From positions 1-21,801 of the IMG/VR virus record IMGVR_UViG_3300002145_000119: DNA of 21,801 nt; one strand, given 5' to 3'. This DNA is from a virus. Every line of letters begins with the position of its first letter. The stretch's first letter is position 1. The position numbers were made by a program, and so were the translations under genes. Under the pieces are notes generated by a model. It ran no database searches, was not told where the DNA came from, and saw only the letters and a program-made list of their open reading frames with translations. Positions 2,647-18,499 of the stretch are shown piece after piece.

Positions 2647-3237
2647 CTAACTTTGCGTTAGGTACTGGGCGAGGCTGTTGGCGGCTACGCGAAGCGTTGC
2701 AAGGTCGCTGTTGTTTTCGATGGTGAAGTCCCACGCCCAGTCGTCCAGGTCGTGCTCCGAATCGTGTGTATCTGACGGTACACCGGCGCGGTCTACCTTC
2801 ACTGTGATGCCTCCCTGCTCCAGGGTTGCCAGAGTCTCGTTCTTGAAGCGTGTGTCCGTAACGATTAGGAAGTCCGGGGCAGGTCGGCGCCGCTTCTTGA
2901 GGACTGCGTCGACCCAGATGTTCGGCATGTTTTTGCGCATGATGTCTGTGCCGAAAATCTGGAGTAGTTCGCGGGTCGTTGAAACCGGCCTACCAAGTAC
3001 TCCCTCGGCGTGACTGCGCACGGAAGGGGGTAGGTAAGCATCCCGTAGTTCACTACGCCCGAACAGGCTGGAAGCCGGCGGCTCGAAGAGAATACTCACA
3101 ATGTCCTTCAACGCTCGGGCAAACGATGTACGCTCCACCCGAGCTCCGTACGCAGTCACAAGTTCGTGTTCGAGCATACTCCCGAACGTGTCTTTTCCAG
3201 TCCCCTTGCGGTGACCGATGGCGATGATTTGGGTCAT
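2647..3237 (-). CDS. Deoxynucleoside monophosphate kinase (phage dNMP kinase-like)
   Basis: The 196-residue protein begins MTQIIAIGHRKGTGKDTF, a P-loop of the form GHRKGTGKDT found in phage deoxynucleotide monophosphate kinases related to T4 gp1. Later segments fit the fold: a phage-typical LLQIFGTDIMRK, then DFLIVTDTRFKNE, which matches the Walker B-like 'DvRfpnE' strand where nucleotide-binding residues lie. The enzyme would phosphorylate dNMPs to dNDPs in the host cytoplasm to feed replication. I prefer ATG 3237 because it overlaps the exonuclease stop as ATGA; a GTG five codons upstream (3252) is possible, with weaker support. It is next to the exonuclease and polymerase genes, in keeping with nucleotide recycling from degraded host DNA. 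Confidence 0.85.
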   Translation of the reverse strand: MTQIIAIGHRKGTGKDTFGSMLEHELVTAYGARVERTSFARALKDIVSILFEPPASSLFGRSELRDAYLPPSVRSHAEGVLGRPVSTTRELLQIFGTDIMRKNMPNIWVDAVLKKRRRPAPDFLIVTDTRFKNETLATLEQGGITVKVDRAGVPSDTHDSEHDLDDWAWDFTIENNSDLATLRVAANSLAQYLTQS

Positions 3238-3995
3238 ACTTTGGGCTTCCACTTCATGATTTGTTTCTTCGAGTTCCAGTCACCTTTGCGGCAGATCCGG
3301 GCCAAGCGGGCCTGTTGGATCATGTCTTCCTTGGTGAGGCCGGCGGACAGATACTTGTTCAGGACCGCGCTCCAAAGAGTCTTCTCGGTGTGGAGCTTTC
3401 CGACAACCTTCTGGGCAGCTACCGGACCGACGCCTTTCACGCCGGGGTAGTTGTCCGTGGTGTCACCGGTCATGGCCTGGACTGCGAGGAAGCGGTTGGC
3501 TTCCAGTTTGGTGATCTCGCGGATACCCTCCTCCGGTCGGTCCCAGTTGTACAACGAGCACGGGATCGTTGCGAGGTCCTTGTCGATCGTTGCGACAACA
3601 GTACCGGCCGGGTCCTTCGTGGCCTCGATGCCCATAACATCGTCCGCCTCAAGCCCCGCCATCTCCAGACACTCGAAGTGCTCGCGGCACCAGTCCACGA
3701 ACTTACGGTACCCGAGGGGCTTCCGGGACTTCCGGTTCGCCTTGTAAGCGGGGTACTCCCACTTCCGCCAAGTTCCATTAGGGTCGGAGAAGCACATCAA
3801 CGGGCGAACATCGCGCTCGTCGAGTAGCCGCCCCACCTCTTTCGTAACTTGGAGGGCGTGGTTGATGATGATCTGTCTGGCGAGCTTGTGGTCGCACGTC
3901 AGGCTCCAGTTGTCGTCGTCCCACTCCGTCTCCACCTCTGCGGCGGACGTTGCTCGGAACGCCATAACGTCGGCGTCAATCAGTAGTCGAATCAT
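3234..3995 (-). CDS. 5'-3' exonuclease (T7 gp6-like, FEN/PIN family)
   Basis: The 253-residue protein carries the acidic signature of the FEN superfamily: LLIDADVMAF (D7, D9), GLEADDVMG (E116, D118, D119), TIDKDL (D138, D140) and MTGDTTDNYPG (D178, D181), followed by the helix-three-turn-helix GVKGVGPVAAQKVVG that grips DNA. KWEYPAYKANRK is the family's arch/helical gateway region. T7 gp6 (300 aa) removes RNA primers and degrades host DNA; the same role is expected here. It is shorter than gp6, mainly at the C-terminus. The start ATG 3995 lies inside the end of the HNH gene (20-base overlap) and lacks a Shine-Dalgarno, so translation is probably coupled. Confidence 0.93.
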   Translation of the reverse strand: MIRLLIDADVMAFRATSAAEVETEWDDDNWSLTCDHKLARQIIINHALQVTKEVGRLLDERDVRPLMCFSDPNGTWRKWEYPAYKANRKSRKPLGYRKFVDWCREHFECLEMAGLEADDVMGIEATKDPAGTVVATIDKDLATIPCSLYNWDRPEEGIREITKLEANRFLAVQAMTGDTTDNYPGVKGVGPVAAQKVVGKLHTEKTLWSAVLNKYLSAGLTKEDMIQQARLARICRKGDWNSKKQIMKWKPKV

Positions 3996-4347
3996 TGTGG
4001 TGTGTGTGGTGTCGTAGGTAAATGATAGACTTCCAGAGGAGGTCGGTCGAGTCGTTGAAAAGTCCGAGGGCTAGGTTGCACCTCCGACACAAGAGGCCGC
4101 GTACCGCCCCGGTAGTGTGGTCGTGGTCCACGGCGAATCGCTGCTTTGCTGGGTGGCGGTGGCACACGGCACACTCACCTCTTTGGTAATCGAACAGGGT
4201 GTTGAACTCCTGTAGCGTCACCCCGTAACGCCGTAGAAGGTCCTGACTTCGACGACACTCCCGGCAGTCCCCCCGCCGTGAGGCGAAAGAGGTAGCCGGG
4301 AGTACGCGTTTGCAAGGACCACGGCACTGTTTGTGGTCTTCGTCCAT
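3976..4347 (-). CDS. HNH endonuclease, recombination endonuclease VII-like
   Basis: The 123-residue protein has an N-terminal four-cysteine zinc site (KQCRGPCKRVLPATSF...DCRECR) and a core of the endonuclease VII family: GECAVCHRHPAKQ, FAVDHDHTTGAVRGLLC and RRCNLALGLFND. The D-H-D-H motif holds the catalytic His and metal ligands, and the CxxC pairs bind the structural zinc. Family members either resolve branched DNA or act as free-standing mobile nucleases. Its position directly after the polymerase matches the small HNH genes (such as T7 gp5.3) that often sit there. The start ATG overlaps the polymerase TGA as TGATG. It could serve replication or be a homing passenger; the sequence does not decide. 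Confidence 0.88.
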   Translation of the reverse strand: MDEDHKQCRGPCKRVLPATSFASRRGDCRECRRSQDLLRRYGVTLQEFNTLFDYQRGECAVCHRHPAKQRFAVDHDHTTGAVRGLLCRRCNLALGLFNDSTDLLWKSIIYLRHHTHHNDSTTD

Positions 4348-6164
4348 CAGTGTGTCTTCGACCAGTCGGGGCCGATTTTGTATTCGCCGTCCAGCGGACA
4401 GCGTGACTTGAGAATGACTCCGGCCTCACGAATGCACTCAACGGCAAGTTTGCCGAGCGTGTCCGCAAGTTCGGGTACAACCTCGAACTGGAACTCGTCA
4501 TGAACGTGGGCGAGGTTCGCGTAGTTCTCTCCAAATATCAGGCCGCGGTTAGGCGCCTCTCGGTGGAGTAGGACGGTAGCGAGCTTCATGACATCCGCCT
4601 CGAATGAGGTCAGGATGTAGTTCAAGGCGTGGCGGGAAGTCGGCAGAGGTACCGGACGTCCCATGAGTGAGCGGAGGAAACCGCGCTCGTTGTAAACCCC
4701 TTCGAGTCCGTCCTTCAAATCCTGGAGACCGACGGTTCGCTTCGCGAAGTTCCGCATGGCTTTGTCACCGGCCTTACGGATAGCGGCCTCGCCTTGCGTG
4801 TCCGGCTCGACGGCAGCGCCGAGTAGTTTAGGACCAGCACCGAACAGGTAGGCGTAGATAAAAGTCTTCGCACCGTCCCTGGTCTTGATGCCGGCCGCAA
4901 CGCGGTTCGCTTCGTGAGGGTCTGCCTCCGTGACAATCTTGACGTACTTGCCGCCGTCGTACGGGGCTAGGTAGTGAGACAGGGCACGAAGCTGGATACC
5001 GCTTGCGTCCGCCCCAACCATGACCCAGTTGCCGGGGGTGGCTGAAAAAAGACTGCGACATTCGGCACCGTACTCGACCTTCAAGCTAGGGGTCTGTGCG
5101 ACGTTCGGGCTTGAGTGTCCACAACGTCCGTGAGGTGTTCCGACGTTGACCACACGTCCGTGGATTCGCCCGTCTTCACCGACCTTCTTGAGCCACCCCT
5201 GCTTACCTGTAGCCAACTGCCCGATGCGCTTCTCAAGCATGAGGTAACGCGCAAGCATGTTGGTCTCGGGGAAGCCGAGGTTCTCCAGGACTTTCTCGTC
5301 GATGATGGCATTACCGGCCTTCGTGTACTTCTCCGGCTTCCAGTCGTACTTGCCTTCGAGACGTGACACGATCTGCTGCCGAGACGCTGGGTTGAATGGG
5401 ACCGTCTCCTCTTTGCGGATCTTCTTCACCTTCGTGTAGGTGACCTTCACCTCCGGTGGAAAGAGTTCCTGCAACTTGTCCGCGATCTCCGCACGTTCGG
5501 TCATGAACTTCGCGACCAACTCCTGCGCACGATCCACGTTGAAGTGGAACCCACGGGTTTGTTGTAGCGACATGATTACGGCGAACTCCTGTTCAACGTC
5601 CCGGAGCAGGTCACTGTACGTCTTTCCTCCGAGGAACAGCCGCAAGGCGACACAGACGCGAACGTCCTGCACGCAGTACATGAGCATGTCCATGTCGAAC
5701 ACGTCCCAGTCGGTGCGCTGCTTTCCGTAGCTACCTTTGTGGATGCCGAGCCTGTAGCCCCACGCTTCGAGCATGTGACTACCGATCAGGTTCCCTGGCA
5801 TTGGCGTTTGTCCGAGTCGTTTGACGCGGTTCCGAACGCGCATGTCGCGATCCTTCACGTCCGGGACCAGTACTTGAGCGGCGATGTACGTGTCGTAGAT
5901 GTCCACCTGTTCAGGTGGCTCCCAACCATACAGCCGCTCAAGTACCGGCAAATCGAATCCCTTGATGTTGTGTCCAGAGATTTCCGTGGCCTTCTCAAGA
6001 AGTTTGAGGCAGTCCTCGATCGAACCATCCGCCGGTACGCGGTAGTTCTTGTTCGCGAACGTCCACTCCCTACACGAGTCCAGGTCGATCACGCTTACGC
6101 AGTGAACGATCAGGTCCTCTCGACTTAGGAATCCGTTCGTCTCGATGTCAAAGTTTAGTCTCAT
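4347..6164 (-). CDS. DNA polymerase, family A, T7 gp5-like, with 3'-5' exonuclease
   Basis: This 605-residue replicative polymerase has an intact proofreading domain: FDIETN (D6, E8), GHNIKGFDLPVL (D71) and MYCVQDV (Y163, D167). The polymerase domain follows with SSPNVAQTPS, motif A GADASGIQLRALSHYL (D386), motif B TRDGAKTFIYAYLFGAG (about 428-444), and motif C HVHDEFQFE (H555, D556). The end, GPDWSKTH, resembles the T7 gp5 end GPNWAICH. T7 gp5 has 704 residues; almost all the difference is upstream of motif A, where the roughly 76-residue thioredoxin-binding insertion of T7 is replaced by a short stretch around residues 235-257. GAAGAG lies ahead of ATG 6164. It overlaps genes on both sides and is flanked by HNH and HTH genes. 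Confidence 0.97.
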   Translation of the reverse strand: MRLNFDIETNGFLSREDLIVHCVSVIDLDSCREWTFANKNYRVPADGSIEDCLKLLEKATEISGHNIKGFDLPVLERLYGWEPPEQVDIYDTYIAAQVLVPDVKDRDMRVRNRVKRLGQTPMPGNLIGSHMLEAWGYRLGIHKGSYGKQRTDWDVFDMDMLMYCVQDVRVCVALRLFLGGKTYSDLLRDVEQEFAVIMSLQQTRGFHFNVDRAQELVAKFMTERAEIADKLQELFPPEVKVTYTKVKKIRKEETVPFNPASRQQIVSRLEGKYDWKPEKYTKAGNAIIDEKVLENLGFPETNMLARYLMLEKRIGQLATGKQGWLKKVGEDGRIHGRVVNVGTPHGRCGHSSPNVAQTPSLKVEYGAECRSLFSATPGNWVMVGADASGIQLRALSHYLAPYDGGKYVKIVTEADPHEANRVAAGIKTRDGAKTFIYAYLFGAGPKLLGAAVEPDTQGEAAIRKAGDKAMRNFAKRTVGLQDLKDGLEGVYNERGFLRSLMGRPVPLPTSRHALNYILTSFEADVMKLATVLLHREAPNRGLIFGENYANLAHVHDEFQFEVVPELADTLGKLAVECIREAGVILKSRCPLDGEYKIGPDWSKTH

Positions 6165-6384
6165 GTCTCTTCTTGAAAAGGGTTGTCGCTTTCGCGATGA
6201 GTTTTTTATGGAGCAGGATGTACAAGCGGTCGCTCATCTCCTCGCTCAACGGACACTCAACGCCATGCAGTTCGGCAGTCACTACCGTCGCCTCCCCGGC
6301 GTAGCGTAGTTCCGCCGCCAGGAAGACCGTGTTCCAGTCTGTGTGAAGGAACGTAGGCTCATCGAGCAGGTAGTGAATCTCCAT
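6148..6384 (-). CDS. Hypothetical protein, 78 aa
   Basis: I do not recognise this protein. It begins MEIHYLLDEPTFLHTDWNTV, has a mixed alpha/beta look (FLAAELRYAGEATVVTAELHGV) and a basic end (LFKKRHETKL). It starts two bases after the previous stop, has no Shine-Dalgarno, and ends 17 bases inside the polymerase frame, so it is translationally tied to both neighbours. The small slot before the polymerase is occupied by unrelated short genes in many T7-like phages. Confidence 0.7.
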   Translation of the reverse strand: MEIHYLLDEPTFLHTDWNTVFLAAELRYAGEATVVTAELHGVECPLSEEMSDRLYILLHKKLIAKATTLFKKRHETKL

Positions 6385-6386
6385 CG

Positions 6387-6623
6387 TCAGTTCGTGATCT
6401 TACGGACCCCGCGCATACGGTACGATGTGAACCGCTTACCGTCGACGGTGCGCCACTTCGACTCGATCGGCCAGCCGGCGAGGATCAGTTCCCCGATGCG
6501 AGCGGCCAGTCGTTCAACGCCCCACCACGCCCGCGCATCCGAGGAGGACAGGCGCCCGCCGTCGGCGAGGTAGTCCAGGATGAGTTGGCGTTGGGACTTG
6601 GAGTAGGTCTGGGTTTTAGCCAT
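6387..6623 (-). CDS. Small winged helix-turn-helix domain protein
   Basis: The 78-residue protein reads as one helix-turn-helix domain: SKSQRQLILDYLADGGRLSSSDARAWWGVERLAARIGEL, then ILAGWPIES and a wing-like GKRFTSYRM. This matches small phage and bacterial HTH proteins of the type 'QR..IL.yL..G..lt..eA....gi.RLaaRI..Lr..G..I' (HTH_39-like). It would bind DNA, but its target and role are unknown. Start ATG 6623 has AACAGGAC about 8 bases upstream, and it starts just after the primase-helicase stop. A role in replication or late transcription control is only inference from position. Confidence 0.8.
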   Translation of the reverse strand: MAKTQTYSKSQRQLILDYLADGGRLSSSDARAWWGVERLAARIGELILAGWPIESKWRTVDGKRFTSYRMRGVRKITN

Positions 6624-6625
6624 AG

Positions 6626-8329
6626 TTAGTAGTCCTGTTGAGGATCTCCGGTAGCTTGTTTGCCGGCATTACTGTCGGCGGGGAACCCTGTGGGCTCGGG
6701 TACTGACTCCATCCAACCAGTCTCGTCATTGTACGAGACGTAGCCGGCAGGTCCAACACGTCCCGTACGCCTGTTTTTCAAGATGCGCACGAGTGTGATG
6801 TTTTGCGTCCCGTCCGTCGCCTGTTGGTTACGTTCGAGACCGATGCAGATGTCGGACAGTTGCCCGATCGAGGCCGAACCTCGTAGCTGTGACAAGGACG
6901 TACGGCCACCTTCTTCGTGCGGGATACCTTGCGGGCGCTTCAAGTGCGAGATGCAGATTATTACCGCGCCGGTCTCTTCGGAGAGGGACCGTAGCTTCGT
7001 CATAACGCGGTCGATTGTCCGCCGCTCGTCCTCTTCCGATTCGAGATCAGATACGAGGATTGACAGGTGGTCCAACACAATCACGTCACACTGGAGACCG
7101 ACCCGCATGAAGCGGACTTTGGAGAGTAGGTTCTTCTCACCGACCGAACCCCAGTCGTCGTAACAGTACAGCTTGTCTTCGAAGTAGGCCCGCCCTTCTT
7201 CCCAACGTGGATGCTCGTACGGTGCTGAATACGTACCGTCCGGCCGTAGGTCCTCCCAGATGTCAAGTCTCTCCCGGATGTGCAGACCGACGAAACCTGT
7301 AAGGCTTCGGTCGACGCTTTCTTCCAGTCCGACGTGACCGACGCGGAGTCCCTGCCCGATGAGATCGTAGCTAAACTGCCTCGCGAACTCGGTCTTACCC
7401 ATCCCGGAACCTCCGCACACCATCCACAACTGGCCGCGTACGATGTGACGCGTCTTGGCAAACAGTTCTTTTGTGAACGGCATCGCCAGGGGTTGTAGTG
7501 CCTCACCTGCCATCATCTTCTCGACGATGTCGGTGACCGATAGGATACCGTCGGGTCGGTAGGGACTCGCGTTCCAGAAAGCCGTCACGAGTGCCGCGGT
7601 GTTTCCCTTCTGTAGGGCGTCCGACGCATCCTTGCAACCGTTCGGTAACCGTGCGATACATCCCTTACCAGGTGAGAGTAGCTGGGCGACTTCCGCCGCC
7701 GCTTCCTGTCCCGCCTCATCACCATCGAACATGATGACAACGCGGTCGAAACTCTCTACGAACTCCAACTGCGCGGCGACTGCTTTCTTTGCACCGCCGG
7801 CGCCGTTCGGTACGGACACTACAGGCCACTTCAAGTCCTGGACCTGCGACATAGAAAGTGCGTCGAGCTCTCCCTCGGTTATCACGAGGTTCCTCCCGCC
7901 TTTCGCCCACAACCACTGACCATACAGGCGCATCGCCTTCGGGTTACCGAGGATGGTGAACTTCTTGTCACGTGTTCGGACCTTCTGGGCAACTACGTTT
8001 CCTTGGTCGTCCAGGTAGTTTGCAACCTGGCGACCATCCTCAGTCACACCGTACTTCCAGAATCGGCACGTCTCTTCGTTGATGCGCCGCTTCCCGAGTG
8101 GGGTGTAGGTGACCGATAGCAGACCACCCTTGTGTTTGTCCTTGGGTGGCGTAGTTTCAGTGTTGTCCATACGTCCCTCCATTTGGTTGGACGTCCAGTA
8201 CTTATCACAAGAGAAGCAGAATCCGTGGCCGTCGGTGTAACGACCACAAGCGTCGGAGCTACCACAGTCGAACTCGTCCGGACAAGGCCCGTGGCCGATC
8301 AGACTACTGGCTGTCTCCTGGTTGCTCAT
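6626..8329 (-). CDS. Primase-helicase (T7 gp4-like)
   Basis: The 567-residue protein has the two-part layout of T7 gp4 (566 aa). An N-terminal zinc module uses C16, C22 (or C28), C38 and C41 (GFCFSC). The TOPRIM primase part follows, with ITEGELDALSM (E152, E154), VPNGAGG and MFDGDEAG (202-207). The DnaB-type helicase has Walker A GGSGMGKTE (306-314), GLEES, Walker B DVIVLDHLS (415-423), ISHLKRP and an arginine-finger region LKNRRTGRVG. The C-terminus (GDPQQDY) is acidic and ends in an aromatic residue, like T7 gp4. AGGAGGTGA precedes ATG 8329. It unwinds DNA ahead of the polymerase and primes the lagging strand. A second, internal start at Met54 is well supported (separate entry). Confidence 0.97.
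   Translation of the reverse strand: MSNQETASSLIGHGPCPDEFDCGSSDACGRYTDGHGFCFSCDKYWTSNQMEGRMDNTETTPPKDKHKGGLLSVTYTPLGKRRINEETCRFWKYGVTEDGRQVANYLDDQGNVVAQKVRTRDKKFTILGNPKAMRLYGQWLWAKGGRNLVITEGELDALSMSQVQDLKWPVVSVPNGAGGAKKAVAAQLEFVESFDRVVIMFDGDEAGQEAAAEVAQLLSPGKGCIARLPNGCKDASDALQKGNTAALVTAFWNASPYRPDGILSVTDIVEKMMAGEALQPLAMPFTKELFAKTRHIVRGQLWMVCGGSGMGKTEFARQFSYDLIGQGLRVGHVGLEESVDRSLTGFVGLHIRERLDIWEDLRPDGTYSAPYEHPRWEEGRAYFEDKLYCYDDWGSVGEKNLLSKVRFMRVGLQCDVIVLDHLSILVSDLESEEDERRTIDRVMTKLRSLSEETGAVIICISHLKRPQGIPHEEGGRTSLSQLRGSASIGQLSDICIGLERNQQATDGTQNITLVRILKNRRTGRVGPAGYVSYNDETGWMESVPEPTGFPADSNAGKQATGDPQQDY
8168..8180 (-). promoter_or_regulatory. Internal ribosome binding site for a helicase-only form
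   Basis: Inside the primase-helicase gene the minus strand reads GGAGGGACGTATG: a full Shine-Dalgarno at 8174-8180, then ATG at 8170 (Met54). Translation from here would give a 514-residue protein without the zinc module, the counterpart of T7 gp4B made from an internal start of gene 4. The match is seen directly; use of the site is inferred from T7. Confidence 0.65.
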
Positions 8330-8666
8330 CGGTGGTCACCTCCTCGGACTTCTTCGAAGCCTTCGTGGCCTTAGCCTTCGCGGGCTTGTCGGGTTTGGAT
8401 TCCTCGGCGGCTTCTTCGCGGTCAAGTCGCAGAGCTTCCGCCAACTTCTCGGCAAGTTCTCGGACTGCGCGGAGGTCTTCAAGCACAGCGTAGCCGGAGT
8501 CGGTGCTGGTACTACTGTACACATCGCCAACGTAGAGTGGGCGGACGGTGTCGATGAAGTCGATCAGTGCGATCGGGCAAGTGGATGCGAACAGCGGCGT
8601 CACGCGGCCCATCAGAACGTAGGTTTTGATGGGGGAAGCGGAGTAGGTTGGTTCGATGCGGCTCAT
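8304..8666 (-). CDS. Hypothetical protein with Lys/Glu-rich tail, 120 aa
   Basis: I do not recognise this protein. The first half (MSRIEPTYSASPIKTYVLMG...) looks folded, with the hydrophobic stretch CPIALIDFIDTVRPLYVGDV; it is followed by a helical DLRAVRELAEKLAEALRLDREEAAEE and a disordered tail of alternating Lys, Ala, Glu and Ser. I start it at ATG 8666, which overlaps the upstream stop as ATGA and has AAGGAAG before it; the frame is open further upstream but those residues look like a shadow of the nuclease gene. Its last 26 bases overlap the primase-helicase start. Position suggests a role at the replication fork, but nothing proves it. Confidence 0.7.
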   Translation of the reverse strand: MSRIEPTYSASPIKTYVLMGRVTPLFASTCPIALIDFIDTVRPLYVGDVYSSTSTDSGYAVLEDLRAVRELAEKLAEALRLDREEAAEESKPDKPAKAKATKASKKSEEVTTDEQPGDSQ

Positions 8667-9061
8667 TTGGTTTCTTCCTTGAAGTCTGTCTCTGTGATGT
8701 GAACGATGCGGACCTGCCAGACAGCACGCCCCCCTTTCTTGAGTGGCTTCTTGTGCCACCCGTGGATGTCGATTGTGCCTCCGGCCTGTAGCCAGCCGAG
8801 GGCGCGTGGTTCTGCGAGGATCTTCTTCTTCCGTGCGGACACGCAAGAGTACGAGGTTGTCTGAACGAGCAGGATGTCCTTGATAGGACGCCGAGCTCCG
8901 GGACGGAATGCGATGATGTCCGCGAAGTTGTAGAGGTCCTGGCGGATTCCCCTACCACCCCCCGGACGTGGTGCGAACCGGTTCCAAACTTCAACGACGG
9001 CCGGATCGTAGCCCTCATCTCGTAGCCACTGGAGGGATCGGGACGTTGGGCTAGGCGCCAT
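8663..9061 (-). CDS. Nuclease-like protein (possible PD-(D/E)XK fold) in the endonuclease I position
   Basis: The 132-residue protein matches a phage family of the pattern W.. F....R.DL..F.D..A......LLVQ.TS...V..R..KI......WL..GG.I..HGW.K. Here these are EVWNRFAPR, RQDLYNFADIIAF, DILLVQTTSYSCVSARKKKI and LGWLQAGGTIDIHGW. The D48 ... Q67-T-T arrangement is what a restriction-endonuclease fold would show, although the usual E-x-K is Q-x-T, so activity is uncertain. It lies between SSB and primase-helicase, where T7 has gp3 (endonuclease I, Holliday-junction cleavage), hence a likely DNA-processing role. A G-rich site (GGGGGTGG) precedes ATG 9061. Confidence 0.65.
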   Translation of the reverse strand: MAPSPTSRSLQWLRDEGYDPAVVEVWNRFAPRPGGGRGIRQDLYNFADIIAFRPGARRPIKDILLVQTTSYSCVSARKKKILAEPRALGWLQAGGTIDIHGWHKKPLKKGGRAVWQVRIVHITETDFKEETK

Positions 9062-9211: not shown

Positions 9212-9940
9212 TTAGTAGTCGCTCGCGCCGTCGGAACCCGAGCCGCTTTCCGTACCGTCTTCGAAGCCCGAGCCTTGCTCGACGAAGCCGTCCTCGACAA
9301 CGTCGAAGCCCTCAGCCGTTTCGTCGCGACCGCCACCTTGACGCGCCTGGATTACCTGGACCTTGCGGAGAGTGAGTTTCACGCCGCACCCGAGGGATGT
9401 GTTCCACCAACCACGAGCGTCGAAGATGATTCGGATCTCGGAGCCACCGCCGATCTCAACCGTGGTGGGTTGGAGGTTCGAGTCGAACAAAGCCGGCGAG
9501 AACTTGTACGTCTTGTTCTTCCGCTTCGAGAACACCTCGGCGTCCAGTCGGAAGTTGAACAACGTGTAGCCGGTGAGGTCCTCGGTCTCTTTGTTGTCCT
9601 CGTCGCGCTCGTACTCCTCGGTGTAGCCGACGTGACCGGAGTCCTTGGACTTGGACTTACCGTTCTCTTTGATGCTGTTCGCGATGTTTGCTTTCTGGAC
9701 AGCGTCGATGAGTTCGATCAGGTCCTGGGTCGCCTGGTCGTCAGTCTTCAAGCGGAGCAAGGTCGAGTAGCGCGGGCCTTTGTCGTAGCCCTCGATGTTG
9801 GGCATCGAAGGGCTGTTCAGGTGGGGGAACACGGCGATACCCGCCGACGTGATGATGTTCTTGATCTCGGGAGCCTCGTCCGTGGGGATGGGGCCGTCCA
9901 GGTCTTTCAGGGACTTGATGATCTTGGAGCTTTTAGCCAT
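9212..9940 (-). CDS. Single-stranded DNA-binding protein (T7 gp2.5-like)
   Basis: The 242-residue protein resembles T7 gp2.5-type SSBs (232 aa). The N-terminal half has SAGIAVFPHLNSPSMPN and YSTLLRL; the core continues with GYTLFNFRLDAEVFSKR, FSPALFDSN and IRIIFDARGWWNTSLGCGVKLTLRKVQVIQ, the strand pattern of the family's OB-fold with its typical 'gsGS.v.v....w.......Gv.l.l..vqv....' end. From about residue 205 the tail is acidic and Gly/Ser-rich and ends GASDY. In T7 the acidic tail with its terminal Phe contacts the polymerase; here the last residue is Tyr. It coats single-stranded DNA at the fork. It follows the RNA polymerase with a TGA-AAACCA-ATG junction and no Shine-Dalgarno. Confidence 0.9.
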   Translation of the reverse strand: MAKSSKIIKSLKDLDGPIPTDEAPEIKNIITSAGIAVFPHLNSPSMPNIEGYDKGPRYSTLLRLKTDDQATQDLIELIDAVQKANIANSIKENGKSKSKDSGHVGYTEEYERDEDNKETEDLTGYTLFNFRLDAEVFSKRKNKTYKFSPALFDSNLQPTTVEIGGGSEIRIIFDARGWWNTSLGCGVKLTLRKVQVIQARQGGGRDETAEGFDVVEDGFVEQGSGFEDGTESGSGSDGASDY

Positions 9941-9946
9941 TGGTTT

Positions 9947-12475
9947 TCAGTTGAAATAGTAGGTGGATTGCAGCACTTCCGAGGGATCGAGATCCCCGTA
10001 CTCGGGAAGGTCTGGGAGTGGTGAGCCGATCTGTTCCTCGAAGGACTGCTTCACAGTTCCGAGGATGTCGGTGGAGAACATGGACGCAGTCTCCTCGCGG
10101 AGTACAGTCCCAACCTCAGCCGCTGTTGCAGCGTGAGAGGTGTAACAGTCGTGGACAACGCCCAGGTGGGTGATGCCCCGGCCGCGAAGTGAGTTCACCG
10201 TGTTGACCAGGAGAGCAGAGTCCAGACTGTGGATGAAGTTCGGAGGAAGTCCGTTCGACTGCCTCTTAGTGTCCACCTTGTCGGTCTCTTCCCAGTAGTT
10301 ACGGTGAATGCGACAAGAGCGGCCGACCATCGTCGTTACCCTCTTGGCCTCGGAGTGGCGGTAGTCTTGTTGTACCCGGAACCCGCTTGGGGTGTCCCAG
10401 TACAGGCCGACTCCGGCGGCAGCGCCCAGAGACGCGGCCTTACGTAGCCAGTCCATCGCCTCGATCGACGAGCGGATCACAGTCCCCATCGCTTCCCACA
10501 GAACAGTGGCAAGCATGACGATGTGTGAGTTAGCGTCATCGAGCGGGGGGTTTTCCCAGCACTTGTTTTCGATCAGGTAGTCGTAGTACCATTCGTCTGT
10601 GTACTTGCGTGTCGAGTACCTGGTACCCCCGTACGGGAGGACCATAACAGGTCTCTTCGCAAGTGAACGGCTCAAGGAACCGTCCGTGATTGACAGCCAG
10701 TTCCGCGCAAAGCGTGGACCGAGCTCGTCGGCGTCCTCGGTCTTACCCCGAGCCCCGATGAATGCCCTACGCCGCCCCTCCATGATGTCGATCAGGTACT
10801 TACTAGCAACGTCGGCGACGTCCTGGTAAATGTCCTGGCGTTTACCGGAGGGAGTGACGTTAGTAGCATTAGCACCAGTACGGTCACGTAGTAGGAGGGA
10901 GTAAATCTGGAGTCCGGAGGACGTTGCGTCTTGGCTTACAGGAAGTGTTGATACAAGAGTTGTACCGTTTCTAGTACATTCCTCTAAGCGTTGCTTCTCG
11001 AAGCAAAACGCAAGGAACTGCCAGGGTTCAGATGCCTTTGTCCAATCTCGACAGTCGAGTGGATCGTTGGCAACACGCGTTATCATACCTAAGTTTTTCC
11101 TTACCCAGTCCACACGTTCGTTGAGCGGGGTCTTGTCCTCCCCAAACACGTTTGCTCCGTGTACATCGAGGGCCATCCGGGCAGCGTCGTTGTCGATCGG
11201 GAGACCTTCCGCGAACTGTAGGAGACCGCGGCCTAGGTCCGTACCCTGCGGGGACATACCGCACGTAGGGATGGGGTAGACGCGGGACCGGAAGTCCACC
11301 TTGTGTGGGTACCAGAAGGGCTGGTGTAGGAACGTACGGGCCGTATCATACGCGGCCGATACAATAGCGCGGTGGCTTGTGAGCTCGGTGTTACGCGTGT
11401 GAATGCGACGTGCGCGGCGCTTCCACTCCTTGACTTCCTCGCTTCCCTGAATCCACTCCCGAGGAGTGGGTGGTAGCTCGATCGGATTGACGGGCGGGAG
11501 CCCAGCAACCTCGTTACCCTCGTCTTTCCAGAGGTGGGCGAACGTCTCGAACACATCCCGGTTGACCGCCCACGGAGTTTCTTGGACCGTGTTCAGTGCG
11601 GCGTAGACTTTGGGGACGTTCTCGGCAGTGAGGTAGCCCCGGTGCGTCTTGGATGTCTTACAGATCGGCATCCGCCGGATGATGTTGGTGTGGTACCCGC
11701 CCACGAACTGCGACTCCCACGGGAGGGGAGGGATGACAGTGGGTAGGAAGGTGGCGACGTTGTTGCGACCAAACTCGGTGGCCTCTTTGAACCACGCCTC
11801 AGCCTCGGGTGTAGCAACTACGAGGAGTTCCTTCTCAAAGATCCGCTTACCCCCACGGCGCCGCATCTTGCTGATGCTCTTGATGCGGATGATCTTGGTT
11901 TTCCTCGCGACCAACTCGACCAGCACGGTACCGACCCGGAGGCGGTCGGCCCGTGTCCAGTCTTCACCCCACCCGAACGCTTTCACCGCCTCGGCCTTGT
12001 TCGCCATGAGGGTGAGGGACTTGTTCAGGTGCTTCCAGTTCTTGGACTTGTCCTTGACCGCCCGCTTGAGTTCGAGCCACGTGTCGGGTTCGTGCTCCGC
12101 GATGTAGCGGAACCTGGCCTCGGCACGTAGCTCGGACGCAATACGGAAGGCGATGGACCGGTAGTCCCTTACCTGTGAGAAAGAGTCGAGGATGATTTGA
12201 CACGCGATCAGTGACGCCTGTTCGTACCCGACCGTACGCAACTGGTCGAGCACGATGGGGAAGGTCTTGTTTCGGTTCTTGGACGCGGCTAAGTCCCAGT
12301 CAAAGAGCGCGGCACAGACATTGGAGACTGAGCTACGCAACAGGTGGTTGCCGGCTGGTGTTGTTGATTCGCGACCCATTTCGAGGGCGCGGCTGTACCG
12401 TGAATCGTAAGTTGCTTGACCCATCGACCGCATCAGGCTGTCGATTTCGTCTTGCGTCTTGGGCGTGTCAGTCAA
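9947..12475 (-). CDS. DNA-directed RNA polymerase, single-subunit T7 type
   Basis: The 842-residue enzyme (T7 gp1 has 883) has all core motifs: DFRSRVYPIP (394-403), motif A VSQDATSSGLQIYSLLLRD with catalytic D516, motif B RSLAKRPVMVLPYGGTRYS with K607 and Y615, LPPNFIHSLDS with H749, and motif C VVHDCYTSHA with D776. The C-terminus is STYYFN, where T7 ends in the essential FAFA 'foot'. It would transcribe the replication and structural genes after host polymerase makes the early messages. The start is TTG 12475, fixed by AGGAG six bases upstream and by the preceding stop; no better ATG exists until residue 15. I could not find a convincing conserved phage promoter for it within the window. 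Confidence 0.97.
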   Translation of the reverse strand: MTDTPKTQDEIDSLMRSMGQATYDSRYSRALEMGRESTTPAGNHLLRSSVSNVCAALFDWDLAASKNRNKTFPIVLDQLRTVGYEQASLIACQIILDSFSQVRDYRSIAFRIASELRAEARFRYIAEHEPDTWLELKRAVKDKSKNWKHLNKSLTLMANKAEAVKAFGWGEDWTRADRLRVGTVLVELVARKTKIIRIKSISKMRRRGGKRIFEKELLVVATPEAEAWFKEATEFGRNNVATFLPTVIPPLPWESQFVGGYHTNIIRRMPICKTSKTHRGYLTAENVPKVYAALNTVQETPWAVNRDVFETFAHLWKDEGNEVAGLPPVNPIELPPTPREWIQGSEEVKEWKRRARRIHTRNTELTSHRAIVSAAYDTARTFLHQPFWYPHKVDFRSRVYPIPTCGMSPQGTDLGRGLLQFAEGLPIDNDAARMALDVHGANVFGEDKTPLNERVDWVRKNLGMITRVANDPLDCRDWTKASEPWQFLAFCFEKQRLEECTRNGTTLVSTLPVSQDATSSGLQIYSLLLRDRTGANATNVTPSGKRQDIYQDVADVASKYLIDIMEGRRRAFIGARGKTEDADELGPRFARNWLSITDGSLSRSLAKRPVMVLPYGGTRYSTRKYTDEWYYDYLIENKCWENPPLDDANSHIVMLATVLWEAMGTVIRSSIEAMDWLRKAASLGAAAGVGLYWDTPSGFRVQQDYRHSEAKRVTTMVGRSCRIHRNYWEETDKVDTKRQSNGLPPNFIHSLDSALLVNTVNSLRGRGITHLGVVHDCYTSHAATAAEVGTVLREETASMFSTDILGTVKQSFEEQIGSPLPDLPEYGDLDPSEVLQSTYYFN

Positions 12476-12489: not shown

Positions 12490-13743
12490 TTAGACGGGTA
12501 CGTATCCGGTGTTGGTGATCGTGCCGATGGTGACCGCGGTACCGTTGAAGGTCTGCTTCTGCTTCACAACGATCGGCGCGTTCTTGGCGAACACGTTGGT
12601 GAAGTTGAGGATCGGGTTTCCAATCACGATGATCTGGTTACCTTGGCAGACTGGCATGTCGAACACCACCTCTTCGAAGTCGACCTTGTACATCCCGTGG
12701 ATCTGCATGATCTGTTGGTCGCTGGCTGCGGACCGCAGAACGACACGCTTCAAACTGGCGTGACGCTCGTACGTATCTCCGGTACCTTCGTACCCTTCGA
12801 GGAGGAGACAGCCAGTGCTAAAGTCCTGCTCGTGTTTGAGGAGAGCCACGTCCTCAAGGATGACACTGTTACGTGCTGAGAAGAATGAGTACGTAAACGC
12901 CTCGCGAGGCATGTGCTTCGTACCCGAGCGGATACCTAAGACCCGGCGGAGGATGACGGGTAGACCTGGCGTGAAGTCGACGGTCGGGTTAGGGGTTTCA
13001 TGGACGTAGGCCGAGCCTGGAGCGACCTTCGAGATCGAGTAGTCATCTCGCGTCGTCGTTTGGACGTCCTGTCCACCGCAGTTCACGAACACACAATCCT
13101 CGACGAGGAGTGCGTGGGGGTTTGCCGGAGTCGCGCCGTTGATTCCGACGAGCGAACCGTAGATACCATGCTCTTCCAAGATGTCCTTGAACAGGACCTT
13201 ACGGAAGGTGACACCGTCGCGGATGCCGTACTGGCGGATACCCCACCGGTTCGTGTTGCGGATCTGACAGTCGTGCATCTCCCAGTTGTCGAAGTAGTCG
13301 TAGCTACCACCAGTTCCGGGGACGTGGACGAAGGAGCTCGTCGGGGCGGGGAGTTCAGTACCCGGTTCCACTCCGCCATCCCAAAGTGTGTAGGCAACCC
13401 CGCCGGACTGGGGCACGGTCCAGTGTCCTGCGTAGAAGTCGGCGGGAACAAAGGGTACGTACTGGTCGGCGTACTGATCCTCGACCGGGAACAGGATGCT
13501 CCACGGCAAGACCGAGAAGAGGTTGGACTCGATGGAGTCGATCGTGACGGCGGCGGGCGGGTAGGTACCAGCCTCGTATCCGGCCACACGCTGGAGTGCT
13601 TCGGTTGTGACACCGACGGAGGCACTGTAGGCAATCGTTGCCTCGGTCCAGTCAGTTGCTTGGAATGCCGAGACCATTTGGTTCTGTACCCCGAGGGCGG
13701 CAGCGACAAGTTCGGAAGTCGTGAGGTTTGCGTACGCGGTCAT
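12490..13743 (-). CDS. Right-handed parallel beta-helix protein of unknown role
   Basis: The 417-residue protein has an N-terminal part (about 1-105) with helices and Pro-rich segments that I do not recognise, then a beta-helix from about 150 onward: DNWEMHDCQIRNTNRWGI, VTFRKVLFKDILEEHGIYG, ALLVEDCVFVNCGGQD, VILEDVALLKH, ASLKRVVLRSA, VDFEEVVFDM. The repeating 'hydrophobic-x-hydrophobic-x-(D/N)-C/V-x-F' turns and the EEHGIYG step are typical of pectate-lyase-like folds used in phage tailspikes and in carbohydrate-active proteins. No signal peptide or membrane helix is seen. It is odd here, overlapping the integrase stop (ATGA) and preceding RNA polymerase, far from tail genes. It may be a receptor/exopolysaccharide enzyme, a lysogenic conversion gene, or something new. 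Confidence 0.75.
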   Translation of the reverse strand: MTAYANLTTSELVAAALGVQNQMVSAFQATDWTEATIAYSASVGVTTEALQRVAGYEAGTYPPAAVTIDSIESNLFSVLPWSILFPVEDQYADQYVPFVPADFYAGHWTVPQSGGVAYTLWDGGVEPGTELPAPTSSFVHVPGTGGSYDYFDNWEMHDCQIRNTNRWGIRQYGIRDGVTFRKVLFKDILEEHGIYGSLVGINGATPANPHALLVEDCVFVNCGGQDVQTTTRDDYSISKVAPGSAYVHETPNPTVDFTPGLPVILRRVLGIRSGTKHMPREAFTYSFFSARNSVILEDVALLKHEQDFSTGCLLLEGYEGTGDTYERHASLKRVVLRSAASDQQIMQIHGMYKVDFEEVVFDMPVCQGNQIIVIGNPILNFTNVFAKNAPIVVKQKQTFNGTAVTIGTITNTGYVPV

Positions 13744-14603
13744 TGGTTTTGTTGTTTGTTGAGGTTCAGGATTGCTTGCTGCTTCTCGTCGGAGGCAGCG
13801 TGTACGTATCGCATCGTCATCTGAATGTCGGAGTGTCCGAGTAGTTCGGCGATGACGTGAATGTTAGTGCCGGCCCTTGCAAGACGTGTGGCGAAGGTGT
13901 GGCGAAGTGCGTGAGGGACGAAGCCTTCCTCGTCGAGGTGGCTGAGTGTGCGAGCACGCTTCCAGACACGTGAGAACGTGGTCTTCGAGATGTCCGAGAA
14001 CGGTCCACGGTTTCCCGTACATAGGGTGAAGAGTTCGTGTCGACACGGGATGTCGCGGGGCTTCCCGGACTTGGAGTCAGGGATGCGGATCAGTGTGGCA
14101 TCGGTGATTGCGTTTGGGTCGGCTACCTTGATGTCCGTCCACTTGAGTTTCAGTAGCTCGGACAGGCGCATACCTGTCTCCCACAGTACGCGGATTGCGC
14201 GACCAACCTGGGTGTTGAGCTTGTAAGCACCCTCTCGGATCTTCTCGAACTCTTCGTCCGAGACCACCCGAGTGCGGCGCCCTTTCTCTTTCATCCAGAC
14301 AAGTCCGGGGATCTTGGGGTGAGGGTACTGCTCGAACGTGAACGCTGTTGCAATCACAGCAGACACGGCGGCGACCCTTCGGTTCACTGTTGCCGGAGAT
14401 AGACCGTACGTAGTCATCTTGTCGCGGAGCTCCAGTGCCTCGGATACCTTGAAGGACCGGACAGGAGCGCGAAGTCGTTTGGGGTCTTGTTCGAAGAACG
14501 CTAGAGCATTCTTCCGGGAACGTTTCCCGTCCTTCTGGTGACTCCAACGGGTCACGTACGTCTGTTCGATTGCTTGCTCTACTGTCCAGTCCTTGGTTTT
14601 CAT
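13740..14603 (-). CDS. int: Tyrosine recombinase integrase
   Basis: The 287-residue protein has the full catalytic set of phage integrases: R146 (WETGMRLSELLKLKW), K178 (DSKSGKPRDIP), H231 and R234 (HALRHTFAT), H257 (LGHSDIQMTMRYVH) and the nucleophile Y266. An N-terminal SAM-like core-binding domain (about 1-95, ATVNRRVAAVSAVIATAF) precedes it. All residues are present, so the enzyme should be active in cutting and joining phage and host attachment sites. It starts at ATG 14603, one base after the stop of the small membrane gene. Integrase upstream of RNA polymerase is known from some T7-like marine phages. No attachment site could be recognised beside it, because the flanking genes overlap. 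Confidence 0.95.
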   Translation of the reverse strand: MKTKDWTVEQAIEQTYVTRWSHQKDGKRSRKNALAFFEQDPKRLRAPVRSFKVSEALELRDKMTTYGLSPATVNRRVAAVSAVIATAFTFEQYPHPKIPGLVWMKEKGRRTRVVSDEEFEKIREGAYKLNTQVGRAIRVLWETGMRLSELLKLKWTDIKVADPNAITDATLIRIPDSKSGKPRDIPCRHELFTLCTGNRGPFSDISKTTFSRVWKRARTLSHLDEEGFVPHALRHTFATRLARAGTNIHVIAELLGHSDIQMTMRYVHAASDEKQQAILNLNKQQNQ

Positions 14604-14604
14604 T

Positions 14605-14769
14605 TTAGTGCCATCGTGGTGTGGTTGGAAAGGCTCCGTCGACAGTGTCCCCCGCTACGTACCAGTAGCAAGCAAGGACTGTCATGAACAACATGAGCGC
14701 GAAGAAGATGAGGGCGTCCCACTCGGGTGGTTCGCCATTTGTTGACTCGTCATACGCTGAGTATGTCAT
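14605..14769 (-). CDS. Small single-pass membrane protein, 54 aa
   Basis: The frame starts at ATG 14769, overlapping the sigma-like stop as ATGA, and ends one base before the integrase start. It reads MTYSAYDESTNGEPPEWDAL, then one strongly hydrophobic helix IFFALMLFMTVLACYWYVAG (residues about 21-40), then DTVDGAFPTTPRWH. The acidic N-terminus and lack of a signal cleavage site suggest a single-pass inner-membrane protein. The function is unknown; its place between a regulator and the integrase could fit exclusion or lysogeny-related membrane proteins, but this is speculation. Confidence 0.65.
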   Translation of the reverse strand: MTYSAYDESTNGEPPEWDALIFFALMLFMTVLACYWYVAGDTVDGAFPTTPRWH

Positions 14770-15401
14770 GAAAGCACCGGGGCGCCGTACTGTTTGATCC
14801 AATCCCGGAGTTTGTGGTATGCGGAGGACAAGAGGCGATCGACCCTGGTAGCGGAGACACCCAGTGCGATAGCGGCCTTGTTGCGGTTGGCCGCAAGGGC
14901 CGGGATGATGTGGACCTGGTAGAGCGCCGCCCGCTCCATTGCAGACAGCGAGGTGACAGTCGCGATCCACCTGTGAAGTGTACCACCAGTTCCCTTCTCG
15001 TTCTGCTCATTTTGCTCGGCGATATCGGAAGGTCCTGGGCGCGGGTCCTCCGGGTGCATGTCCTCGGGTAAGTCCTCGGGCCGTCCCTGCTTTGCCATGT
15101 ACCGCTTCGTCATGCCCCGACGTTTGACACCGGTGATGTCCCCGTCCTCCGCAAGGATGGTAAGGGCCTCCTCGTACGCGTACTTCCAGACGTAGGCGAG
15201 TAGGTTTGTACCTGCGGTCAGGTCCGCCTTGTTTGCGGCGATTGTGATCGCGGTGAACACCGCCGACGAGATCGCATCGAACGTCGGTTGGGTGTAGTGC
15301 TTCCGGATATGCATGATGAGCTTAGCCGGTATGTTTACCTTGAACGCGGCCTCGATCAGGTCATTCGGGGTGTCGGCGCGTAGTTGTGGAAGGGAGTTCA
15401 T
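14766..15401 (-). CDS. Sigma-70-like (ECF-type) transcription factor
   Basis: The 211-residue protein has two parts joined by a charged linker. Residues about 150-203 match sigma region 4: LSAMERAALYQVHIIPALAAN, RNKAAIALGVSATRVDRLL and SSAYHKLRDWI, a helix-turn-helix of the 'iA..LGvS...V...l..A..kLR' form that reads -35 DNA. Residues about 30-105 resemble a reduced region 2: FDAISSAVFTAITIAA, TNLLAYVWKYAYEEAL, then a basic VKRRGMTKRYMAK. The linker 107-137 is Pro/Glu/Asp-rich. It could redirect host RNA polymerase or act as a simple DNA-binding regulator. Region 2 is weak, so promoter melting is uncertain. The ATG 15401 overlaps the upstream TGA. Confidence 0.65.
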   Translation of the reverse strand: MNSLPQLRADTPNDLIEAAFKVNIPAKLIMHIRKHYTQPTFDAISSAVFTAITIAANKADLTAGTNLLAYVWKYAYEEALTILAEDGDITGVKRRGMTKRYMAKQGRPEDLPEDMHPEDPRPGPSDIAEQNEQNEKGTGGTLHRWIATVTSLSAMERAALYQVHIIPALAANRNKAAIALGVSATRVDRLLSSAYHKLRDWIKQYGAPVLS

Positions 15402-15885: not shown

Positions 15886-16497
15886 TCAGATTTTGCTGGG
15901 GTTGGTGAGTGCTTCGAGGAACGTGGAGATGTAGAAGGGTAGCTTGCGGCCGCTTTGTTTGGTCAAGGCAAGGATGCCGGACGCGGACGCCGGGACGTCA
16001 CCCTCGTCAAAAGTAGATCCGCTCGGGCAGGTGTACACAGTCTTGGTTCGACGGGCTCGGACTGTGACGTACTCGTGATCGTCGCCGTACTCGACTACGA
16101 ATCCATCCGGCGCCTCGGTGTCCTGCTTCGGCGCATCACACGCCTGCTTAGGCGCATCACACGCCTGCTTAGGCGCATCACACGCCTGCTTCCACTGTCC
16201 CGGACGTGGGTGGAGGTAGCCTTCCTCGATGGCGCCCCGGTTTACTAGGGTGCGGCGGTTCGCTGGGCTCGTAGGTGCTTTCACGTACCAGACTCCTTCC
16301 AAGGCGTCGTAGGAACCCTTGAGCGAGAGCGCAAGAGGGTACTGACCACACCTATCAATGACCGGGCGTGCGCCTTGGTTTGCGTCCGAGTACCAATGGT
16401 TGCGCCATTCAATGGCGTGTTGGAAGTCGTCGAAGACGAGGATTGGAAACTCGGGTGAGAAGACCTTAGCTGGTTTCGGTTTGTTTTCGTTGTACAT
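15886..16497 (-). CDS. Hypothetical protein with triple KQACDAP repeat
   Basis: I do not recognise this 203-residue protein. The N-terminal part (VFSPEFPILVFDDFQHAIEWRNHWYSD...) looks globular. A linker around residues 102-125 holds the heptad KQACDAP three times, then KQDTEAP. The C-terminal part includes DHEYVTVRARRTKTVYTCPSG and KLPFYISTFLEALTN. Three regularly spaced Cys in the repeat could form disulfides or bind metal, or the block may just be a recent slippage product. It begins at ATG 16497 with a GGTACCACC leader and no proper Shine-Dalgarno. Confidence 0.7.
   Translation of the reverse strand: MYNENKPKPAKVFSPEFPILVFDDFQHAIEWRNHWYSDANQGARPVIDRCGQYPLALSLKGSYDALEGVWYVKAPTSPANRRTLVNRGAIEEGYLHPRPGQWKQACDAPKQACDAPKQACDAPKQDTEAPDGFVVEYGDDHEYVTVRARRTKTVYTCPSGSTFDEGDVPASASGILALTKQSGRKLPFYISTFLEALTNPSKI
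16122..16191. repeat. 21-bp tandem repeat, three near-perfect copies
   Basis: The 19 bases gcgcatcacacgcctgctt recur at 16131, 16152 and 16173, each separated by two bases, giving a 21-bp period; a partial copy precedes them. It is in frame and produces the KQACDAP repeats. The near identity at DNA level shows recent expansion. Confidence 0.9.
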
Positions 16498-17100: not shown

Positions 17101-17895
17101 TCAGGTGGCGGCGGTAGTGGCGGTGGCGGTGTGGTACGAGTTGTCGATCTCGATCTCGATCTTCGTAAGGTCCGGTACGTCCGGGTACTTGTCGCTCTGG
17201 TTGGGAGTTTGGTTGTTGTAGGTGAAGTTCACGGAGCGTGTGTCGAATCCCCACCCATCCTTGGTGTCGAGTCGCCAGATCGTAAGGACCGATCCGTCGG
17301 AGTACACGTAGTCGGTCCATACCCGGCGGCTGGCGCGGTGGATGGAGTAGTAGGGGACGTCTCCGACTTGCTCCCACGTACCGATTGGTCCAAAGTAGTC
17401 GTTCAGGAATCGGTGGACACTCTCCGCTTGGGACAGCGCAAGCGGGTTGTCCTCGACGAAGTGTGCAATGAAGAACTCGAAGCGATCATGGGAGGTAGAA
17501 TCCCCGACCATGATTTCAATGTCCATGCCATTTGCGTCAGCTATGGTCACCCTTCCGGTTTTTATGTCGTGGAGGTCTTGCAGTGCGCTGAGTCCCCCTG
17601 GCTGGAGCGGCATGACGTCAACGAGTTGGCGGTGTCTGCGCAGAAGCGCAGCGGCGGATGCCCACAAGTTGTGGACGACGCCTTGGAAGGAGTCTGGGAT
17701 GAAGCAACCCACACCGCATCGGTTTCCGTTGCCTTGGTTGTAGTAGAGACATTGGGCTTCGATGTGGTCATCGCTGATACACCGCGTACCGTTGTTGCGG
17801 GTGAGGAGGGCGTTCCGGAAGGAAGGGATGGTCCACCCGTTTGTGAGTACGTGCCGTTTCGGCGCTTGCGGGTAGCTTATGAATGAGATGTCCAT
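17101..17895 (-). CDS. Paralogue with CGVGCFIPD motif plus C-terminal extension, 264 aa
   Basis: Residues 1-150 are clearly related to the next gene upstream: ALLTRNNGTR, QCLYYNQGNGNRCGVGCFIPD, QLVDVMPL, LSALQDLHDIKTGRV and HDRFEFFIAHFVE align with that protein in order. The family 'CL....G..C.vGCliPD ... LQ.iHD' is widespread in phages and has no known function; its conserved Cys residues suggest metal binding or redox chemistry. Residues about 150-264 are an extra domain (VWTDYVYSDGSVLTIWRLDTK, VNFTYNNQT) ending in a Thr/Ala run. The start follows a 16-bp repeat and has no Shine-Dalgarno. Confidence 0.75.
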   Translation of the reverse strand: MDISFISYPQAPKRHVLTNGWTIPSFRNALLTRNNGTRCISDDHIEAQCLYYNQGNGNRCGVGCFIPDSFQGVVHNLWASAAALLRRHRQLVDVMPLQPGGLSALQDLHDIKTGRVTIADANGMDIEIMVGDSTSHDRFEFFIAHFVEDNPLALSQAESVHRFLNDYFGPIGTWEQVGDVPYYSIHRASRRVWTDYVYSDGSVLTIWRLDTKDGWGFDTRSVNFTYNNQTPNQSDKYPDVPDLTKIEIEIDNSYHTATATTAAT

Positions 17896-17937: not shown

Positions 17938-18011
17938 TCGAGGTACCCTGTCCGATCAAGCGCCGGACTTGAGAGGATACGCCACACGGCGCAGAGTATT
18001 TCCAGAATCAT
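17931..18011 (-). CDS. Possible 26-residue leader peptide or micro-protein
   Basis: An ATG at 18011 overlaps the upstream TGA as ATGA and opens a frame of 26 codons: MILEILCAVWRILSSPALDR then TGYLDI and TGA. It lies in the 112-base gap between the paralogous pair and its stop falls at the 16-bp repeats. The N-terminal half is hydrophobic. The coupling overlap is the only support; it may be chance. Confidence 0.35.
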   Translation of the reverse strand: MILEILCAVWRILSSPALDRTGYLDI

Positions 18012-18499
18012 TGCTCGGTGGTTTCGTGCTCGGTGACGCAGTGCTCGGTGAAGAACCTGAACCGCTCATGGGTGTCGAGTTCTTCGCCATGCTTCATGTC
18101 CTTGATTGTGAAGAAGTATCCGTCATTGTCCGGGATGTCCACCCGATTAGTGTTCGTGTCGTGGATGGATTGGAGGGCCGTGAGTCCACGTGCTGCCCGA
18201 AGGTCGGTACGGTTGTTCAAAAGCGGCATCTTGTCCACGAGGTCCGGGTGGTCTTTGAGCAAGGCGCCAACACCGCCCCGGTTTCTCATCCCTGGATGTC
18301 CGTCCGGGATGAAGCATCCGACCCCACAGTGGTTGCCTTCCTCGTCCTCGTACAGACAGTGGGTGACGAGTTCACTATACGCCCGCTTCCCCTTGTTTCG
18401 GGTGAGTAGCGTTTGGAGGAACTGTTCCTTGGTGAGTCCGGGGCGGAGGACGTACCGTTTGAACGGCTTGTGGTTGTAAATGAATGAAGCAAGATGCAT
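18008..18499 (-). CDS. Paralogue with CGVGCFIPD motif, 163 aa
   Basis: The protein begins MHLASFIYNHKPFKRYVLRP and contains LLTRNKGKRAYSE, HCLYEDEEGNHCGVGCFIPD, LVDKMPLL, GLTALQSIHDTNTNRVDIPD and HERFRFFTEHC. It is the compact version of the family also present in the next gene downstream. The function is unknown; the 'CxVGCxIPD...LQxxHD' pattern recurs in many phages. The start is firm: AACAGGAGAAAACC precedes ATG 18499, a 19-base leader identical to that at 20153. Confidence 0.8.
   Translation of the reverse strand: MHLASFIYNHKPFKRYVLRPGLTKEQFLQTLLTRNKGKRAYSELVTHCLYEDEEGNHCGVGCFIPDGHPGMRNRGGVGALLKDHPDLVDKMPLLNNRTDLRAARGLTALQSIHDTNTNRVDIPDNDGYFFTIKDMKHGEELDTHERFRFFTEHCVTEHETTEQ

Follow-up and report, generated by a model that had tools for sequence, protein, structure and literature searches.

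The window analysed here, a viral contig of 21,801 bases, probably represents about half of a genome. A full-length family A DNA polymerase ORF occupies positions 4347-6164, as the first-pass annotation had proposed, and lies on the minus strand. The encoded protein matched Pfam DNA_pol_A (E 1.2e-32) and PHROG 17 (E 2.3e-113), and its best solved relative in a sequence search of the PDB was T7 gp5 (E 1.9e-73). It combines a family A polymerase domain with a DnaQ-like 3'-5' exonuclease, the composition of the T7-type class, and its operon holds homologues of the gp1 RNA polymerase, gp2.5, gp4 and gp6, as T7-type operons do. The genes concerned are the following.

3234-3995, minus strand: 5'-3' exonuclease, gp6 homologue (domain search)
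3976-4347, minus strand: endonuclease VII-type HNH protein, the start of which overlaps the polymerase stop
4347-6164, minus strand: T7-type family A DNA polymerase, gp5 homologue, 605 amino acids (Pfam, PHROG, PDB sequence search and AlphaFold2 model)
6626-8329, minus strand: primase-helicase, gp4 homologue, C-terminus ...DPQQDY (PHROG 239, E 1.3e-170)
9212-9940, minus strand: gp2.5-like SSB, acidic C-terminus ...DGASDY (SBB_T7 and PHROG 112)
9947-12475, minus strand: single-subunit phage RNA polymerase, gp1 homologue (domain search)

Read leftward, the genes follow the customary T7-like order of integrase, RNA polymerase, gp2.5-like SSB, primase-helicase, polymerase, endonuclease VII-type HNH protein, 5'-3' exonuclease, dNMP kinase and portal, which is the gene order of Pseudomonas phage LUZ100 and of roseophages. 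As in those phages, the tyrosine integrase gene (13740-14603, minus strand) is located just upstream of the RNA polymerase gene, and the window phage is possibly a temperate T7-like phage. At the DNA level no known phage record was close to the window, and a whole-protein search of genome contigs returned a single distant relative, with no kin among prophages.

Other ORFs of the minus strand were also recorded. The integrase and RNA polymerase genes are separated by an ORF of 417 amino acids (12490-13743) with zero matches in Pfam, PHROGs, NCBIfam, GenBank phages and IMG/VR patterns, and so large an orphan is unusual at this place. The ORF at 14766-15401 (211 amino acids) matched sigma-70/ECF very weakly (E 0.08) and is a possible phage sigma factor, while that at 15886-16497 contains a 21-base tandem repeat encoding QACDAPK three times. 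The neighbouring ORFs 17101-17895 and 18008-18499 look paralogous, since both carry the motif GVGCFIPD, and have no NCBIfam match. At the extreme right end of the contig (21594-21801) a 109-base unit is present nearly twice with 99% identity, either a terminal repeat or an assembly artefact.

Thumb tip and processivity

According to the first-pass annotation, the polymerase lacks the thioredoxin-binding insertion of T7 gp5, a claim to be checked by alignment and structure prediction against the T7 protein. Both analyses bear it out. HMMER aligned residues 5-234 of the window polymerase with T7 residues 5-261 and residues 252-604 with T7 residues 330-704, so that the alignment breaks exactly at the insertion, which stays unmatched. 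The spacing between two residues that are invariant in 102 polymerases, G205 and N258 (G231 and N335 in T7), is 53 residues in the window polymerase versus 104 in T7. The AlphaFold2 model (pLDDT 94.7, pTM 0.92) has the T7 fold (Z 43 over 568 residues, 3.5 A; Z 35.6 against Klenow), and DSSP assigns two strands, 238-243 and 250-255, to a hairpin at the insertion site.

5394-5459, minus strand: predicted short beta-hairpin at the thumb tip (residues 236-257), replacing the 76-residue thioredoxin-binding domain of T7 (spacing and model)

These results show that the insertion is missing from a polymerase of T7 fold, whose thumb tip is short and Klenow-like in the predicted structure, and in this feature it differs from the thioredoxin-dependent T7 gp5 subgroup, which carries the thumb insertion of about 76 residues. 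The motif that had been given as FNPSSR reads FNPASR in the window.

The same spacing was measured in 131 non-redundant polymerases, a sample skewed to window-like sequences, and ranged from 47 to 104: 19 of them fall below 60 residues, 44 between 60 and 75, 49 between 76 and 90 and 16 between 91 and 99, and only T7, Pf1 ERZ-2017 and Pasto reach 100 or more (n = 3). In GenBank T7-like isolates dominate; their matches are long, at about 2,100 bases. LUZ100, roseophages, pelagiphages and cyanophage P60 are also without the full insertion, and in phiCbK-like phages the loop is even longer (PMC3556154). Because most of the 131 relatives lie below the full T7 spacing, the short form is ordinary, and an absence common to most sampled relatives needs no special explanation for the window phage. 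We rejected the size of the domain as a novelty, given that the spacings form a continuum, and at the intermediate values length alone is no proof of thioredoxin binding.

The further claim that this phage must manage processivity differently from T7 stands in part. Use of thioredoxin in the T7 mode is unlikely, since the binding domain is absent, but this applies to most of the sampled relatives and is not specific to the window. The acidic, aromatic-ended tails of the T7 helicase and SSB contact the polymerase (PMC5997990, PMC12593628). Among phages without the full insertion, the last residue is F or Y in 59 of the 80 distinct helicase tails and in 46 of the 52 SSB tails, and the net charge is -3 or lower in 57 of the helicase and 49 of the SSB tails. 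The window tails end in ...QQDY (helicase, weakly acidic with a net charge of -2) and ...ASDY (SSB). As most of these phages keep tails of this kind, coupling of the helicase and SSB to the polymerase through them is plausible from the sequences; in the window phage the two proteins would hold the polymerase at the fork by their tails, and thioredoxin would not be used. The front basic patch of T7 (K587, K589, R590 and R591) corresponds to Y, E, R and G in the window polymerase (counted back from the LDGR motif), a patch poor in basic residues, and therefore the docking site must differ from that of T7.

Alternatively, processivity could depend on an unrecognised factor: host thioredoxin or a sliding clamp bound elsewhere, or the product of a small neighbouring ORF. 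Small ORFs of no assigned function do adjoin the polymerase gene (6148-6384, 6387-6623 and 8304-8846); however, the model shows no added domain beyond the T7 fold and the 21.8 kb record contains no thioredoxin gene, and we regard such a factor as unlikely.

Active-site residues and the coupling of positions 480 and 618

All catalytic motifs had been said to remain in this polymerase. This holds for the metal-binding and O-helix residues: the exonuclease carboxylates D6, E8, D71 and D167 and the polymerase carboxylates D386 and D556 are intact, as in T7-type enzymes, and so are R429, K433 and Y437 (the R/K/Y of the O-helix) and H555. It does not hold for Q391, F441, T519 and H345, which replace invariant or nearly invariant residues. 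Compared with 100 relatives, Q391, F441, M501, T519 and E522 depart from otherwise invariant columns, and H345 and P508 from nearly invariant ones. These changes, missed by the first-pass annotation, are the unusual part of the polymerase. Four of the codons concerned are listed below.

4599-4601, minus strand: GAG, encoding Glu522 where T7 has G618; coupled to Gln391
4608-4610, minus strand: ACC, encoding Thr519 where T7 has Q615 and Klenow Q849
4842-4844, minus strand: TTC, encoding Phe441 where T7 has Y530 and Klenow Y766
4992-4994, minus strand: CAG, encoding Gln391 at the steric gate, which is E480 in T7 and E710 in Klenow

The codons of the changed residues are ordinary, and sequencing error was rejected as their source, as D501M would require three nucleotide substitutions and other contigs carry the same pattern. 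The canonical family A pocket, that of Klenow, Taq and T7, consists of a Glu steric gate in motif A and an O-helix Tyr, and with Q391 and F441 the window polymerase departs from it. In Klenow the steric-gate Glu pairs with Tyr766. As the steric gate, Glu710/658 screens the 2' position and forms a bond with the nucleotide 3'-OH (PMC7200780), and E480 is its T7 equivalent (PMC13228545). In the model, residues 515, 519 and 522 belong to one helix (510-540), and helix geometry would place them on a common face. At the T7 Q615 position T, S or M occurs only in the kin of the window and in one other lineage. Polymerases of this kind include those of the window (Thr) and of loci L107 and L108 (Ser), and two others with the Gln gate, L196 (Thr) and L198 (Met).

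Relatives with the window residues were gathered by a search with the fragment from motif A to the O-helix. At T7 positions 480, 530 and 618, the resulting 178 polymerases read E/Y/G in 113 cases, Q/F/E in 61 and Q/L/E in two, with two incomplete; hence in the 176 with letters at both coupled sites there are 113 E/Y/G and 63 Q/(F,L)/E combinations and none that is mixed. Many of the 178 are near copies, so these counts refer to sequences and not to events. Over 200 polymerases altogether, a gate Q is always accompanied by E at 618 and a gate E by G or A, with zero exceptions. In a separate scan of 80 loci with a different query, each of the 13 Q-type loci has E522 and each of the 67 E-type loci has G or A, although at least 4 of the 13 are contigs already in the first set. 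When all alignment columns were scanned, 522 alone split perfectly with 391, and 441 came next. Q-type polymerases were found in cultured or named phages (Kolga, CRP-7, DSS3_PM1, Vibrio 1.208.B and 405E50-1), that of DSS3_PM1 retaining Tyr at 441. The alignments thus show a sequence-defined class with Gln at T7 position 480, Phe (rarely Leu or Tyr) at 530 and Glu at 618, in which, among the polymerases sampled, the residues at 480 and 618 are always exchanged together. We looked for a tie between thumb length and this pocket and found nothing clear, Q-type spacings running from 53 to 99. Among the other polymerase loci collected, the annotation of Desulfovibrio phage ProddE (6549-8989) shows an intron-split polymerase gene.

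The polymerases of Pelagibacter phage Kolga, roseophage CRP-7 and Vibrio phage 1.208.B share the Q..F..E pocket with the window polymerase but belong to a distant lineage and to other phage families, and are without its Thr519 and His345. Those of LUZ100, roseophage CRP-125 and pelagiphage HTVC019P resemble it in length (about 565-600 amino acids), absence of the full insertion and operon, whereas they keep the usual Glu/Tyr/Gly pocket at 36-42% identity. T7 gp5 shares the fold, the metal ligands of both active sites, the gene order and the acidic-tailed helicase and SSB partners, and differs in the thioredoxin-binding domain, in the residues at 480, 530 and 618 and in that at 615, which is Thr in the window. 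The Klenow portion of E. coli DNA polymerase I has a similar short thumb tip and the family A fold, but it carries the Glu710/Tyr766 gate pair and is a repair enzyme.

Interpretation of the altered pocket

The gate Glu, and usually the Tyr hydroxyl, is lost always together with the gain of a Glu one turn past Asn611/Gln615 on the same helix, which is best read as a relocated carboxylate. The pocket would need one carboxylate, provided in the usual enzymes by motif A, where it is bonded to Tyr530, and in the window class by the helix after Asn611/Gln615, where it would face the Gln. Such an exchange would largely keep function, the amide still shielding the 2' position of the sugar. On balance we consider it probable that the window encodes the replicative polymerase of a T7-like (autographivirus-type) phage, with processivity maintained through the helicase and SSB and with one pocket carboxylate relocated at little cost to function.

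It is appreciably less probable that the Q/F/E pocket alters the substrate (another sugar or a modified dNTP) or the balance of fidelity and speed and was selected for this in particular phages. Klenow Q849 is one of the residues that set sugar selection and fidelity, and the kin of the window are altered at T7 Q615 and T427 as well. E710/E658 and Y766 have the same role in Klenow and Bst (PMC7200780), and the exchanges arose several times. On the other hand, Gln and Glu are isosteric, and most of the ring contacts of Tyr are retained by Phe. PurZ was absent from all 16 records, some of them partial, including the partial 21.8 kb record of the window, and the NCBIfam DpoZ models scored far below their cut-offs (36 of 500 and 15.7 of 350 bits); a link with aminoadenine DNA is unlikely on these grounds. 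We see a similarly modest chance that a second, interchangeable sugar gate evolved repeatedly in phage family A polymerases, its carboxylate coming from the helix after Gln615 and not from motif A, and its different sugar or nucleotide selectivity suiting particular phages.

Shared ancestry of one odd clade could by itself produce the coupling of Q and E, and 26 of the 32 Q-type rows among the 131 non-redundant polymerases do belong to a single large clade that is mostly marine. Nevertheless, on trees built without the coupled columns (quick trees with long branches) three to six changes are needed, at least three of them well supported. The 62-row tree needs three changes, all three forced by supported branches, and the 77-row tree needs six, four of them forced, at both sites; only two are forced in separate N- and C-terminal half-length trees. 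Trait and partner move in the same direction in every independent pair of the 77-row tree, the four supported pairs being too few for significance in a sign test (p 0.125). The AU test rejects a single clade for 11 Q-type rows with the big marine clade left out (p 0.00018), and also for a narrower Q-type set (p 0.018). The cleanest case is the Q-type polymerase of locus L113, which groups with the E-type L114 and L115 at 99-100% support and lies among E-type kin in all of the trees. Transfer of a segment as its source is not supported, since its 341-460 segment is closest to the E-type sister. Shared ancestry alone is consequently improbable, and we read the Q/E exchange in these alignments as the linked shift of a single carboxylate that has recurred. 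That the enzyme is decaying or accessory, its several altered near-invariant residues reflecting relaxed constraint, is very hard to reconcile with a full-length ORF in a standard replication operon, its sole match within the record being itself, with intact metal and exonuclease ligands, R429, K433, Y437 and H555, and with the same triple kept in dozens of other phages.

A search of the open-access literature for a Gln gate ('E710Q', Glu710/Tyr766) found no description, and a survey of virioplankton PolA discusses position 762 and not 710. The absence of the insertion is real but ordinary, while the coupled Q/F/E pocket is, as far as we could search that literature, new. Absence of the domain in most sampled relatives suggests that the thioredoxin dependence of T7 is perhaps not the rule among its wider kin, and offers replisomes that may depend on phage proteins only for comparison with that of T7. 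For enzyme engineering the family A steric-gate glutamate, which is regarded as strongly conserved, is a leading target. A natural, repeatedly evolved and strictly paired replacement of it makes T7 480/618 a testable epistatic pair, with 530 as a third site, and makes the Q-type polymerases an untapped set of enzymes.
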